Source: Luteitalea pratensis (GTDB lineage Bacteria; Acidobacteriota; Vicinamibacteria; Vicinamibacterales; Vicinamibacteraceae). From it: DNA of 64,000 nucleotides. Location of the stretch: assembly GCF_001618865.1 (NCBI RefSeq), contig NZ_CP015136.1:7413001-7477000 (forward strand), given 5' to 3'. How positions within the stretch are numbered: the stretch's first letter is position 1; each line of letters opens with the position of its first letter. Shown here piece by piece: positions 25,471 through 42,800 of the stretch. The notes under the pieces are model-generated. The model was given only the letters and a program-made list of their open reading frames with translations, ran no database searches and was not told the origin of the DNA. Both the position numbers and the translations under genes were made by a program.

Positions 25471-26880
25471 ATGAGTCAACCCTCCCGCCCCTTGCTGCTG
25501 GTCGATGACGAGGGCGCGTTCCGGCGCGGGGTTGCGGAGTACCTGTCCGGTACCGGCTTCACGGTGACCGAGGCGTCGACCGTCGCCGAAGCCCTGGAGC
25601 AACTCGAGGGGTTTGCCTTCGACGTGGTGCTCACGGATCTGCGGTTGCCCGACGGTGAGGGCACGACGGTGCTCGACGCGGCCCGTGCCCGCTACCCTGA
25701 CATCCTCGTGCTTGTCGTCACCGGCCACGGATCCATCCGGGCGGCCGTGGATGCCATTCGGCAGGGGGCAGCTGACTTCGTGACCAAGCCCTTCCAGCTC
25801 GCCGAACTCGACCTGGCGCTTGGCCGGGCCATCGAGCGCCAGCGCCTGCAAGCGGAGAACACATACCTGCGCGAGCAGCTTCGGGAACGGTATCGGCTCG
25901 CGCAGTTGGTGGGGCGCAGTCCCGCGATGCAGGAGGTGTTCAAGATCGTCGAGACGGTGGCGCCGACCAACAGCACCATCCTGATCCTCGGCGAGACAGG
26001 CACTGGCAAGGAGCTGGTCGCGCGCGCGATCCATCAGATCAGCACGAGGTCAGGCGAGAAGTTCGTCGCGCTCAACTGCAGTGCCATCCCCGAGTCGCTG
26101 CTCGAGGCGGAGCTGTTCGGGCACGTCAAGGGCGCGTTCACCGGCGCGATCGCGAGTCGCCCGGGCCGATTCGAGCTCGCCCATCGCGGCACCCTCTTCC
26201 TCGACGAGATCGGGACCATGCCCGTGCCGCTGCAGGCCAAGCTGCTGCGGGCGCTGCAGGAGCGCGAGGTGGAGCGCATCGGCGAGGCGCGCCCGATCAA
26301 GATCGACGTGCGTGTGCTGGCCGCGACCAATGCCAACCTGGACGAGATGGTGCGGCAGGGCACGTTCCGCGAGGACCTCTTCTACCGCCTCAACGTCATC
26401 CCGGTGCAGTTGCCGCCGCTGCGGGAACGGCGCGACGATGTGCCGCTGCTGGTGCGCGACATGTTGCAGCGGCTCGGCGCCCAGTCGGTGCCGCCGCGAA
26501 TCGATGTGACGTTCTCGCAGGAGGCGATGCGCCGACTGATGGCGTACGACTGGCCCGGCAACATCCGGCAACTCGAGAACACGGTGGAGCGCGCCCTGGC
26601 GCTGAGTCCGGGCCGATCGCAGATCGACGTGAGCGTGCTTCCGCCCGATGTCCGCGGCGATCGCCCTGACGACCGTGGCGTCACCATCAACCTGCCCGAG
26701 CAGGGACTCGATCTCGAACAGGAACTGGCGTCGGTCGAACGTGTCTACATTGCCCAGGCGCTGGCGCGGACCGAACAGAACCGCAGCCGCGCGGCCGATC
26801 TGCTCGGCGTCAAGCGGACGACGCTGGTAGAGAAGATCAAGCGGCTGGAACGCCTGGGGCTCGGGGACGGGCTACAGTAA
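25471..26880 (+). CDS. NtrC-type sigma-54-dependent response regulator
   Basis: A 469-residue regulator. The receiver domain has acidic residues at 12-13, phospho-acceptor Asp 56 (VVLTDLRLP) and Lys 105. The AAA+ domain has Walker A GETGTGK at 174-180, the sigma-54 contact loop GAFTGA at 221-226 and Walker B TLFLDEIG at 241-248, with the arginine-finger region further on. A Fis-like helix-turn-helix ends the protein (RSRAADLLGVKRTTLVEKIK). The frame is open back to 24976 but passes through repeats; ATG at 25471 starts the domain correctly. The cognate kinase is not obvious; the DHp mini-protein 560 bp away is a candidate relay partner. Confidence 0.93.
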   Translation: MSQPSRPLLLVDDEGAFRRGVAEYLSGTGFTVTEASTVAEALEQLEGFAFDVVLTDLRLPDGEGTTVLDAARARYPDILVLVVTGHGSIRAAVDAIRQGAADFVTKPFQLAELDLALGRAIERQRLQAENTYLREQLRERYRLAQLVGRSPAMQEVFKIVETVAPTNSTILILGETGTGKELVARAIHQISTRSGEKFVALNCSAIPESLLEAELFGHVKGAFTGAIASRPGRFELAHRGTLFLDEIGTMPVPLQAKLLRALQEREVERIGEARPIKIDVRVLAATNANLDEMVRQGTFREDLFYRLNVIPVQLPPLRERRDDVPLLVRDMLQRLGAQSVPPRIDVTFSQEAMRRLMAYDWPGNIRQLENTVERALALSPGRSQIDVSVLPPDVRGDRPDDRGVTINLPEQGLDLEQELASVERVYIAQALARTEQNRSRAADLLGVKRTTLVEKIKRLERLGLGDGLQ

Positions 26881-26906
26881 ATTTCAAATTTCGAATTTCA
26901 AATTTC
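26879..26906. repeat. aaatttc heptad array overlapping a stop codon
   Basis: Four in-phase heptads (aaatttc, aaatttc, gaatttc, aaatttc), AT-rich in a GC-rich genome. The first two bases belong to the TAA stop of the sigma-54 regulator. It ends 12 bp before the next start codon. Confidence 0.85.
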
Positions 26907-26918
26907 AAGGACTCCCAC

Positions 26919-28469
26919 ATGGCACGCGGCGCCTTCTGGACCATCATCGTCGACGATCAGCCGACGGCATTCCGCGCGCCGGTACGCGAGGACCTGCTGC
27001 CGACGCTGAAGCAGCTGCATCGGCAGCACCCGACGGCCGTCATCAAGTGGTTCCAGCGCGGGCGGCTGTGGGAGACCCCCGGCGACGCGATGGATGCCAC
27101 CAAGCCGCCCAGCCGCGGCGTCGGCTGGCGGCCGGGCGGCGCCCACAAGGATCCGCGCGACCAGTACAAGGTGCCGCGCGACGTGAAGCGGGCGCGCTGG
27201 GCGTCGCAGGCTGCAGACGGGCGGGGGCCGTGGATGAAGGGGGACAAACCCTTTAACGCCGAACGCCTGCCGCGCCGAAGCCCCGGGGCGGAGGCGGGCA
27301 GAACGACTTCGTCGACGGGCACCGGGCACCGGGAAACGGGAACCGGCGGACGTCCACCACGCGCCGACAGGCCTACAGGTGATCGGCCGGCGTGGAAGCC
27401 GAAGGGCGACAGCGCGACGAACGACGAACGCCTGCCGCGCCGAAGCCCCGAGGCGGAGGCGGGCAGAACGACTTCGTCGACGGGCACCGGGCACCGGGAA
27501 CCGGGAACCGGCGGACGTCCACCACGCGCCGACAGGCCTACAGGTGATCGGCCGGCGTGGAAGCCGAAGGGCGACAGCGCGACGAACGACGAACGCCTGC
27601 CGCGCCGAAGCCCCGAGGCGGAGGCGGGCAGAACGACTTCGTCGACGGGCACCGGGCACCGGGAACCGGGAACCGGCGGACGTCCACCACGCGCCGACAG
27701 GCCTACAGGTGATCGGCCTGCGTGGAAGCCGAAAGGCGACGGGCCCTTTGCGGCGCGCGGCGAGAAGCCCGCGTGGAGGCCCAGGGAGGATCGGGCGACC
27801 AACGCCGAACGCCTGCCGCGCCGAAGCCCCGGGGCGGAGGCGGGCCGAACGACTTCATCGACGGGCACCGGGAACCGGGAACCGGGAACCGTTGGACGCC
27901 CGCCCCGCGCCGACAGGCCGACAGGTGATCGGCCAACGGGTGAACGGCCTGCCTGGAAGCCGAAAGGCGACGGGCCTTTCGCGGCGCGCGGTGAAAGACC
28001 CGCGTGGAAACCCAAGGCGGACCGTGCGACCAGCGCCGAGGGCAGGCCTGCGTGGAAGCCCAAAGGCGATCGGCCAGCGGGTGATCGACCGGCGTGGAAA
28101 CCAAAGGGCGATGGCCCGCCGGCGGTCCGCGGCGAGAAGCCCGCCTGGAAGCCGAAAGGCGACCGGCCCACTGGCGACCGGCCCGCGTGGAAGCCCAAAG
28201 GCGATCGGCCAACGGGTGATCGACCGGCCTGGAAACCGAAGGCGGACGGCGCGCGGCCGGCAAAGCCCGGCTATCGCGGCACTGGGACCGGTGGTGGAGA
28301 CAGGCCGCGCAGCAGCGCGTCGCGCGGTGACTGGCGTGGCGATCGCCCGGGCCGCGATGCGACTCCGCGGCCCGGCGGCGATCCACCGGCGCCTGCGAAG
28401 AAGGCCCGCACTTGGCGCGCTGGCGAGGTTCCGCCAGCGGATCGGAAGCGGAAAAAGAGCGATGACTAG
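26919..28469 (+). CDS. Arg/Lys/Pro-rich disordered repeat protein with small N-terminal domain
   Basis: A 516-residue protein. Residues 1-110 form a conserved-looking domain (ARGAFWTIIVDDQPTAFRA, then LKQLHRQHPTAVIKWFQRG and RDQYKVPRDVKRARW). The rest is low-complexity and strongly basic: three 55-residue perfect repeats encoded by 165-bp DNA units, then many DRPAWKPKGD units. The 165-bp unit contains two intergenic repeat types (the cgccgaagcc palindrome and cgggcac/cgggaac heptads), so it seems to have grown by capture and tandem duplication of intergenic repeats. The basic tail suggests nucleic-acid or ribosome binding; the true function is unknown. The N-terminal domain is not one I can name. 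Confidence 0.75.
   Translation: MARGAFWTIIVDDQPTAFRAPVREDLLPTLKQLHRQHPTAVIKWFQRGRLWETPGDAMDATKPPSRGVGWRPGGAHKDPRDQYKVPRDVKRARWASQAADGRGPWMKGDKPFNAERLPRRSPGAEAGRTTSSTGTGHRETGTGGRPPRADRPTGDRPAWKPKGDSATNDERLPRRSPEAEAGRTTSSTGTGHREPGTGGRPPRADRPTGDRPAWKPKGDSATNDERLPRRSPEAEAGRTTSSTGTGHREPGTGGRPPRADRPTGDRPAWKPKGDGPFAARGEKPAWRPREDRATNAERLPRRSPGAEAGRTTSSTGTGNREPGTVGRPPRADRPTGDRPTGERPAWKPKGDGPFAARGERPAWKPKADRATSAEGRPAWKPKGDRPAGDRPAWKPKGDGPPAVRGEKPAWKPKGDRPTGDRPAWKPKGDRPTGDRPAWKPKADGARPAKPGYRGTGTGGGDRPRSSASRGDWRGDRPGRDATPRPGGDPPAPAKKARTWRAGEVPPADRKRKKSDD
27258..27740 (+). repeat. Three tandem 165-bp units within the repeat protein gene
   Basis: Units begin at 27258, 27423 and 27588, almost identical, each with a cgccgaagcc palindrome and a cgggcac/cgggaac heptad array. 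A fourth, diverged copy of the core lies near 27805-27895. The period is 55 codons, so the frame is kept. Confidence 0.9.
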
Positions 28470-31634: not shown

Positions 31635-35265
<3,631 letters not shown>

Positions 35266-35301
35266 CGTGAGGCGGTCGGCCAGACTCACCAGAATAACAG
35301 C

Positions 35302-35343
35302 GGGTACCGGGTACCGGGTACCGGGTACCGGGTACCGGGTACC
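35302..35343. repeat. Perfect gggtacc heptad array (6 units)
   Basis: Six identical gggtacc units directly upstream of mfd. The perfect identity suggests recent expansion or active maintenance. Confidence 0.95.
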
Positions 35344-35415
35344 GGGAGTCGGCTGGGGCTCGGGTAGGGCCACGTAATGCCGGAATGCCTCGAATGCCGG
35401 GAATGTCGAAGGAAG

Positions 35416-39851: not shown

Positions 39852-42800
39852 CTACTTCGTGAGGCAGATGTCCACCGATTGGGCCGTGCCATCCGCGAGG
39901 TTCGCGAAGATGCGATACAGGCCCGCCGTCAGCCCCTTCGTGCTCCAGTTGTAGTGGTACTGACTACCGTCCCATTGGTACAGGGGCACGACGGATGCCG
40001 ACACGGGCTCCGGAGTCTCGAGCGCCGCTGCCGAATCGCACGCGCCAAGTCTTCCGGTGCGCGTGAAGGTCGGAATGCCCGTCTGTTGCACGACAGCGCC
40101 GGCTGCGTTCTTGAGGACGAACTTCGCCGGAATGGTTTGACCCGTCTTGAACTTGCTCATGAGGACGAGATCATGGGCCGTGTCGTTGATTGGCTGCAGG
40201 AAGCCGTCCCACCCGTAGACGACATCGATCTCTACCGTTATTGACGCGCCGTTGTAGTTCGCCGTATCGGTCGGCGTGAACGCTACCGTCAGCTTCTGGT
40301 TCAGACCGACGTTCAGCGTCACGCCGGCGGCCGGTTCGTAGCTGAACGAGCCCGCGACGTTCGCGGTGGCGTTCAGTTGCGTCGCACTCAGCGCGGTCCC
40401 GTAGATGATGTCGGCGGGATTCGTCCAGGTGACGACCGGCGTCGCCTTGAGCACGGTGATCTGTACCGTCTTGGACGCGCCGTTGTAGTTCGCGGCATCA
40501 GTCGGCGTGAAGCTCACCGACAGCGTCTGCCCCGGACCGGCGTTGAGCTGCGTGCCCACGGGCGGCGTGTAGACCAAACTGCCCGCGACATTCGCGGCCG
40601 CATTGAGCTGCGCGGCGCTCAGCAGCGTGCCGTAGGTGATGTCGGCCGGCGTGGCCCAGGTGATCACCGGCGTCGCCTTGGCGATCTCGATGGCCGCCGT
40701 GTTGGAGGCCGCGGCGTAGTTGTCGTTGCCGGCAAAGTTACCGGTCGCAACGTAGCTGCCGGCGTTCACCGGCGCCTGCCCGTTGGTCGTGTCGTAGCTG
40801 ATCGTTGCGGCACCCAGGTCCGCGCCACCCACGCCCGCCACCGTCCCCGTCGTCCCGTGCGCCTGGCCGTCGAAGGTGGCGCTCACCGATTGCACGTTCA
40901 CCGTCGGAGTCGCCTTGCTGATCACGATCGCCGCCGTGCCGCTGGCATTGTTGTAGTTGCCCGTGATGTCGGTGAATGCCCAGTTGGCCGTCCCACCCGG
41001 CACGTTGGTGTAGCTGTCACCGAGCACCAGGCCCGTCAGGGTCTCGCCCTTGACACCCGTGGCCGAGCCCGTCGCGCCATGCGCCGCGCCGTCGTATGTA
41101 CCGCTGTAGCCATCGACCTGGATCGTCGCGTCCGCCTTGCTGATCACGATCGCCGCCGTGCCGCTGGCGTTGTTGTAGTTGCCCGTGATGTCGGTGAATG
41201 CCCAGTTGGCCGTCCCACCCGGTACGTTGGTGAAGCTGTCACCGAGCACCAGGCCCGTCAGGGTCTCGCCCTTGACACCCGTGGCCGAGCCCGTCGCGCC
41301 ATGCGCCGCGCCGTCGTATGTACCGCTGTAGCCATCGACCTGGATCGTCGCGTCCGCCTTGCTGATCACGATCGCCGCCGTGCCGCTGGCGTTGTTGTAG
41401 TTGCCCGTGATGTCGGTGAATGCCCAGTTGGCCGTCCCACCCGGTACGTTGGTGAAGCTGTCACCGAGCACCAGGCCCGTCAGGGTCTCGCCCTTGACAC
41501 CCGTGGCCGAGCCCGTCACGCCATGCGCCGCGCCGTCGTACGCACCGCTGTAACCATCGACTTGGATCGTCGCGTCCGCCTTGCTGATCACGATCGTCGC
41601 CGTGCCGCTGGCGTTGTTGTAGTTGCCCGTGACGTCGGTGAATGCCCAGTTGGCCGTCCCACCCGCTACGTTGGTGAAGCTGTCACCGAGCACCAGGCCC
41701 GTCAGGGTCTCGCCCTTGACACCCGTGGCCGAGCCCGTCGCACCATGCGCGTCGCCGTCGTACACGCCCGTGTAGCCGGTGACCGCGACCGTCGCGTTGG
41801 CCTTGCTGATCACAATCTGAACCGTGCCGTTGGCGTTGTTGTAGTTGCCGGTCACGTCGGTGAACACCCAGTTGGCCGCGCCGCCCGGGACGTTGGTGAA
41901 GCTGTCACCGAGCACCAGGCCCGTCAGGGTCTCGCCCTTGACACCCGTGGCCGAGCCCGTCGCACTATGCGCGTCGCCGTCGTAAGTAAAACTCCCACCC
42001 TGAACGTTGATGGTTGCCGAAGCGCGGCTTACCAATTGCTGTAGCGTTGCCTGACTTTGCGCGAACTGCGGTGTGGTCCCCTGGCTTGTACCGCTGTACG
42101 CCGCCGCGATCGTGTACGCACTTGTTGCGGCAGGCAGCGTTGACGCACTGCATGTTGCAGTGTTGCCCAGGAGGGGCACGGCGGCGCAGAGTACCGTCGA
42201 GCCGTTCGTGAACGTAACCGTCCCGACGCCGCTCGGGTTTGCCGGCACTGCGTTTACTGTTGCCGTGAACGTTACAAGAGTGCCGTACGTACTGGGGTTC
42301 GCACTGGAGATGATCGCGGTGGTAGTGGCTACCTGGGCCACCGCAGCGTAGTTCGCGTCAACATTCCGGGTTGAATTGTCGTGGTTCAAACAAATCGGAT
42401 TAGACGCATCTTCCGCCTGGCCAACCTTCCAGTTGGCGAACGTGTACTGTGTGCCGACGCTAGATAATGGCATCGCCGTCAGCCGCAAAGACTGTGGGGA
42501 GGCAGTAGCTTGCGGAATATTCGTCCCATTGTTACCGGTGTCAGCAAGAATGGATCCAGAGGAGACAACTAACCCGGAACAGTCGGCGGCGCTGTATAAC
42601 TGCCACTCGATCGTGGCTTTGTTACCAGCGGTGCCAGTGGTCTTGACACGTACCGCACCGTCCGTGAACGTGACCTGCGCCTGGGACGCAGCGCCACGCG
42701 CCGTTAGATAGAACTTCACACCGAGGTGGTGCGGCTCCACGAGGAATAGCGTGGCGTTGTTGATGCGACCGAGTTCATCAGCCTGGATGGTGAAGCTGCG

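Follow-up and report, generated by a model that had tools for sequence, protein, structure and literature searches.

The window analysed in this study, a stretch of 64,000 nucleotides, is the final part of the Luteitalea pratensis genome (G000), a single contig of 7,480,314 bases whose first ORF was read by eye as dnaA. On the + strand, at 26919..28469, it contains an ORF of 516 aa (ATG to TAG) that joins a conserved N-terminal domain to a repetitive, basic tail. AT-rich heptads (AAATTTC) at 26879-26908 fill most of the gap between the stop codon of a response regulator and the start of this gene. The N-domain (codons 1-108; 26919..27242, +) is supported by alignments and carries a WRPGGxHxDPR motif. 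Its core was predicted by AlphaFold2 to be strand-strand-helix-strand-strand-helix (mean pLDDT 83; 91-97 per block for residues 11-60). Searches of Pfam and NCBIfam with the window protein gave no family at E ≤ 1, and Pfam searches with 27 family members reached a best E of 0.0096. With the N-domain, a PDB profile search gave a best E of 0.13, and a PDB fold search returned nothing at E ≤ 0.001 (best E 0.67). TPR was considered as the identity of the domain and rejected, since weak matches in only 2 of the 27 members are not credible.

The N-domain was detected in 47 of 59 relatives (48 of 60 if the own genome is included) and is missing from 12, among them the same-genus draft G003. In a draw of 199 genomes across the phylum it was found in 15, the own genome counted, all of which belong to the same order; 20 of the 184 misses were listed, and of these 3 share the order, 1 the class and 16 only the phylum. 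On GTDB contigs, 97 places with the domain were found and 80 were kept as loci, whose titles mostly name Acidobacteria, Acidobacteriota or Vicinamibacterales, while a few draft genomes name other phyla. At 78 of the 80 loci a sigma-54 response regulator precedes the gene on its strand by at most 4 kb, and genes encoding Dabb (38), Dus (40), PPIC (33) and Mfd (26) were found downstream, with many contigs too short to tell. Because the neighbouring genes are conserved, most of the 80 loci are orthologues in a fixed place. The gene is incomplete at 18 of them, and one locus (L110) is the same contig as the congener G004. Besides the window species, three congeners possess the gene (G001, G002 and G004).

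Behind the N-domain lies a tandem array (27255-27740; period 165, 2.9 copies, 98% matches). An earlier note on this DNA, made from the sequence alone, described three perfect tandem copies and a diverged fourth; the array and the fourth copy are there, but the copies are not perfect. Unit 1 (27260..27424) and unit 2 (27425..27589) agree in 163/165 positions, units 2 and 3 (27590..27754) in 152/165, with divergence at the end of unit 3. The fourth unit (27806..27980) matches units 1 and 2 each in 119 of its first 130 bases. Every unit contains a 39-bp element, here called REP (ERLPRRSPGAEAG; 27261..27299, 27426..27464, 27591..27629 and 27807..27845), followed by heptads. In unit 1 these read GGGCACC, GGGCACC, GGGAAAC, GGGAACC (27317..27344) and they recur at the same offset in units 2 and 3; those of the fourth unit lie at 27863..27890, where a repeat was detected at 27862-27891. 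All these features are on the + strand. The best heptad stretch of the tail agrees in 27/28 letters, and 0/300 codon shuffles were as good. The REP copies of the gene are flanked by GAACGC-like sequence, and the tetranucleotide GTAG, present in a copy in mfd, is absent beside them. Two of them fold somewhat better than shuffles (z -1.85 and -2.04), and for three copies elsewhere (L002 in a BNR-like gene, L004 and mfd) folding does not surpass that of shuffles (z 0.06, 0.69 and 0.03). As folding is unconvincing for the copies outside the gene, the name REP rests on sequence recurrence. Near-identical repeat copies are a known assembly hazard. The near-identity of the 165-bp copies might thus suggest that three or four units are an assembly artefact, which we regard as very unlikely, because the units carry private differences, the fourth is both diverged and displaced, and the genome is one contig.

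As claimed previously for DRPAWKPKGD units, GDRPAWKPKGD-type units follow the array (27981..28256, +). They are a repeat kind separate from REP and heptads and are shared with G001 and G004 but absent from G002. Together with the short spacer that separates them, REP and heptads make up 120 of the 516 residues. What had been described as almost wholly repeats beyond a 110-residue domain is thus a low-complexity, repetitive tail, of which REP and heptads are only a part. The tail is basic (pI 11.3; 94 K+R vs 54 D+E in 408 aa), with 5.9% hydrophobic residues, and past residue 110 it was modelled without structure (pLDDT 33-46 per ten-residue block). The proposal of a long basic disordered tail is therefore borne out for its basic character, while disorder comes from a weak model, built on an alignment of two sequences in which the N-domain scored low as well.

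The ORF might not be translated as one protein, either because the gene is decaying or because the product ends early. The third-position GC, which is 0.91 in the N-domain but only 0.73 in the tail (congeners' tails 0.73-0.80), and the antisense and other-frame ORFs, which are likewise open across the gene, would fit such a reading. Nevertheless we consider it improbable, since no stop interrupts the 516 codons and the frame runs to a conserved C-terminal motif (RTWRAGEVPPADRK; 28407..28448, +), at which selection was measured across four species. The motif, [RK]T[WY]R.G[ED][LV]PPADRK, is in frame in the window species and in G001, G002 and G004. In the six species pairs its 14 codons gave pS 0.68 and pN 0.125 (the codons were picked for likeness, which lowers pN), and codons 1-60 gave pS 0.50 and pN 0.042. 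As the C-terminal end is kept in frame across four species, the insert is probably translated, and judging from these sequences the repeats sit in a frame that stays open from one conserved end to the other. The claim that coding sequence was made from REP and heptad DNA can be kept in so far as both lie in frame between the N-domain and this end, but an origin of the tail from them is not supported.

The gene is complete at 62 of the 80 loci, and the tails, counted from 18 residues beyond the WRPGG motif, span 0-521 residues with a median of 133: 16 have at most 25 residues, 13 have 26-100 and 33 have more than 100. True short forms of 101-133 aa occur in 11 of the 62, so that short forms beside variable tails, the pattern for which the earlier note had suggested comparing orthologues, do exist. 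This count leaves out L174, L183, L186, L188 and L189, which are among the 16 shortest tails. In these five the WRPGGxHxDPR motif lies near the C-terminus, and the variable stretch is internal and not terminal. Two or more occurrences of a motif [WF][KR]P were counted in 17 of 47 tails (mean 5.7 and maximum 12 in 200 rounds of shuffling), and W-K/R-P motifs recur in distant genera. By sequence comparison, the orthologous tails have a common grammar and not a common sequence.

REP DNA (at most 7/37 substitutions, either strand) was found four times in the window gene, in 0/3 congeners and in 0/80 orthologous genes. Three heptads (at most 2 substitutions) were found in the window gene and in G001, and the one match among the orthologous genes (1/80) was a weak one in L183. 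The outcome that the earlier note had named as evidence against growth by capture, distant orthologues sharing both the repeats and their order, was accordingly not seen. In G001, heptads directly follow the N-domain (27/28 letters over four units; 0/300 codon shuffles as good) without any REP, and in G004 they are borderline (5/300 shuffles as good). The G002 gene has none (99/300 shuffles as good). Further down, the G001 tail contains another hairpin-like element (PFDSAQG; CCCTTCGACTCCGCTCAGGGCA), which has three exact sites within 27 kb, namely in the orthologue of the window gene, in mfd and before another gene; mismatched sites were sought in that neighbourhood only. All three exact CCCTTCGACTCNGCTCAGGGCA sites of G001 (L198, L039 and L108; 6,415,489 to 6,442,142) cluster around a match to Y1_Tnp at 6,430,954, as if by local hopping. 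Taken together, the earlier proposal that the gene itself grew from captured repeats is not supported: long basic tails occur throughout the order without them (33/62 complete genes), WKPK units are present in G001 and G004, and the repeats with the residues between supply too small a share of the protein. Because tails of more than 100 residues are found order-wide without REP or heptads, long repetitive tails exist independently of captured repeats. On this sequence evidence, the tail is older than the captured DNA.

At E ≤ 0.001, a BLAST search of the gene against its own genome matched at least 46 further places (scores were computed for 40 of the 230 first-look candidates), with REP matches down to 9.3e-13 in addition to heptad matches. 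Among the matches listed, none is a REP-heptad composite that could have served as donor, and the longest is 55 bp. As no other listed match spans both, a single capture of REP together with heptads is not established. The exact REP pattern GCCGAAGCCN{0,10}GGCGRAGGCGGG has 23 sites, 4 in the gene, 1 in mfd and 18 elsewhere, and 4 sites each in G001 and G004. The heptad pattern CCGGGNACC x3 has 156 exact sites in the window genome, 79 in G001, 54 in G002, 31 in G004 and 0 in G003, G005 and G006; its reversed control gave 0 everywhere except in G005 (1). Read backwards, REP and heptad patterns have 0 sites in the window genome. In principle, the tail could have grown by internal slippage or duplication alone, its likeness to dispersed repeats being chance at high GC. 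Relatives' tails do gain repeats without any REP: a 5-mer is repeated at least three times in 25/62 complete orthologues (including two loci whose unread bases count as a repeated 5-mer). The strength of the REP matches, the many heptad matches, the empty backward controls and the codon shuffles, none of which equalled the heptad score, make this reading extremely improbable. A reversed direction, in which the gene exported its repeats to other sites of the genome, would be suggested by its 4 of the 23 exact REP sites. We give it hardly any credence, since the other sites are diverse, several of them lie within GTAG-headed palindromes, and G001 and G004 have sites of the pattern while their genes lack the element.

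A period-7 array lies within about 150 bp of REP at 5/18 of the other sites vs 8/108 background windows (p 0.02). A general REP-heptad association was dropped as a main argument because this excess is only modest. The strand of the heptad CCGGGNACC arrays in G000 follows chromosome position: 31/34 lie on the minus strand below 4 Mb and 13/15 on the plus strand above it (Fisher 1.9e-7), for 49 arrays merged by eye among the sites listed (up to 5.7 Mb) and with a 4-Mb cut that was chosen post hoc and not placed from a mapped terminus. Other tandem repeats of the window, of 231 bp (2 copies) and 222 bp (4.9 copies, 94%), lie at 40227-41988. Matches to Y1_Tnp (PF01797) were found in G000, G001 and G004; none was found in G002 or, in the window species, in the vicinity of the gene. 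GTAG-type REPs were seen near Y1_Tnp at 2/3 loci checked in G000 and at the single locus checked of two in G001. At L201 (G000, 3,999,441-4,000,223), fifteen GGTAGGG-headed REPs on one strand, mostly 56 bp apart, adjoin a Y1_Tnp match at 4,000,455.

Both repeat families had been called intergenic elsewhere in the genome. Both are indeed dispersed, but REP is not only intergenic: 9/19 pattern sites outside the gene (8/18 and the one in mfd, a sample from one exact pattern) fall in recognised genes, the remaining 10/18 being neither shown coding nor proved intergenic. The eight genes are mutL (between the N-terminal part and MutL_C), pheT (where REP adjoins heptads), trmFO, a LutB-like gene (within the final residues), a DUF58 gene, a cytochrome c/HEAT gene, a gene with sub-cut-off matches to anti-phage ProA/Hhe models, and a gene judged by eye to be BNR-like. 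In mfd, a GTAG-headed REP that starts GGTAGGG lies in frame in the C-terminal linker (31843..31920, -). A CGGGTAC heptad array (35301-35346, -) lies within the predicted N-terminus of mfd (PGTRYPVPGTRYPVP), where the true start may lie further in. Direct comparison with relatives covered two of the eight genes (BNR-like and pheT) and mfd. In the BNR-like gene and in pheT, congeners show clean gaps where the REP-type insert sits. The BNR-like gene, which has the same REP subfamily and GAACGC-like flanks, exceeds its G001 counterpart by 87 bp and its G004 counterpart by 81 bp, and each difference is a multiple of 3. The pattern site of pheT is a linker that is filled in G001 and G004 by other or heptad-like peptides, and a second REP-like stretch, which is not an exact pattern site, is absent in all six relatives compared. 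The mfd linker holds REP in G000 and a different kind of element at the same place in G001. The REP element is read in different frames and on both strands in these other genes, which fits tolerated insertions. That four copies are held open in one frame in the window gene could point to a REP-encoded peptide that gained a specific function and was multiplied by selection. We think this unlikely, given the varied frames and strands in other genes and its absence from every other orthologue examined.

The best explanation, in which we place considerable confidence, is that dispersed repeats were captured into a pre-existing repetitive tail and that a frame-neutral unit was then duplicated. The orthologues show a gene present across the order, in which a small N-domain that folds is followed by a basic tail that evolves fast and is probably disordered. 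In the window species, this tail would have taken up dispersed DNA without loss of frame, heptad arrays close to the junction of domain and tail as well as a REP-type element. REP is present in one species only, and the heptads probably entered before it. As the near-identity of the units suggests, local duplication of a 165-bp segment (REP, heptads and a WKPKGD unit) would then have produced four copies, and the length of the segment makes such duplication frame-neutral. Insertions would survive in linkers, loops and tails if they are multiples of three without stops. REP was probably moved by REP-associated tyrosine transposases, given that Y1_Tnp genes are present, and the REP/heptad part may be tolerated filler. 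Since the tail is basic and tryptophan-bearing, it is tempting to guess that it is a putative multivalent binder of RNA or another polyanion.

Capture of palindromic DNA by genes has been described in other bacteria. Rickettsia palindromic elements (RPE) are reported from intergenic DNA and also, as in-frame insertions, from solvent-exposed parts of conserved genes' products (Ogata et al. 2000, as described in PMC2229807 and PMC3767692). A figure legend shows that pheT was hit in Rickettsia, as it was here (PMC3767692). RPEs measure 100-150 bp, whereas the element reported here has about 40 bp, is joined with heptads and is tandem-amplified in a low-complexity tail; the likeness is drawn without sequence comparison. 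GTAG/CGTC REPs were reported inside genes of several bacteria, many of them for DNA synthesis and repair, with encoded stretches of 20-30 residues, or 43-82 in clusters, and GTAG REPs were linked to RAYT transposases; in the parts of that paper used here, Acidobacteria appear for transposase genes and not for intragenic REPs (PMC3733652). The GGTAGGG start of the mfd element resembles these REPs. In contrast, the REP of the gene described here lacks the GTAG head, has GAACGC-like flanks and was duplicated with heptads and host codons (compared with excerpts of PMC3733652). G-rich heptameric repeats of Xanthomonas and Nostoc are, in the sections of the source used here, dispersed 7-bp tandem arrays, mostly between genes, in which each unit has GGG; they are about equal on both strands and show no regional preference (PMC4692102). 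Here the unit is GGGNACC, lies inside an ORF and is joined to REP, and the strand of the arrays follows chromosome position. Our searches of open papers turned up no account of REPs inside genes of Acidobacteriota. In-frame capture of REP is thus already known; new in this study are the heptad partner and the fourfold amplification in a disordered tail.

In summary, these results extend the known range of in-frame REP capture to a soil lineage. For annotation, they warn against taking the peptides that REPs encode in mfd, mutL, pheT and trmFO for conserved domains. Genus-wide, disordered tails and linkers might be open to the landing of dispersed REPs and heptads, which would keep entering the proteome in this way, as regular raw material for new disordered sequence that is then duplicated locally; we offer this generalization tentatively and would put it at somewhat below an even chance. 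The congeners show states of one process, with no captured DNA, with heptads and another hairpin element, or with heptads and fourfold REP, and thus the gain of new sequence by bacterial disordered segments becomes testable.
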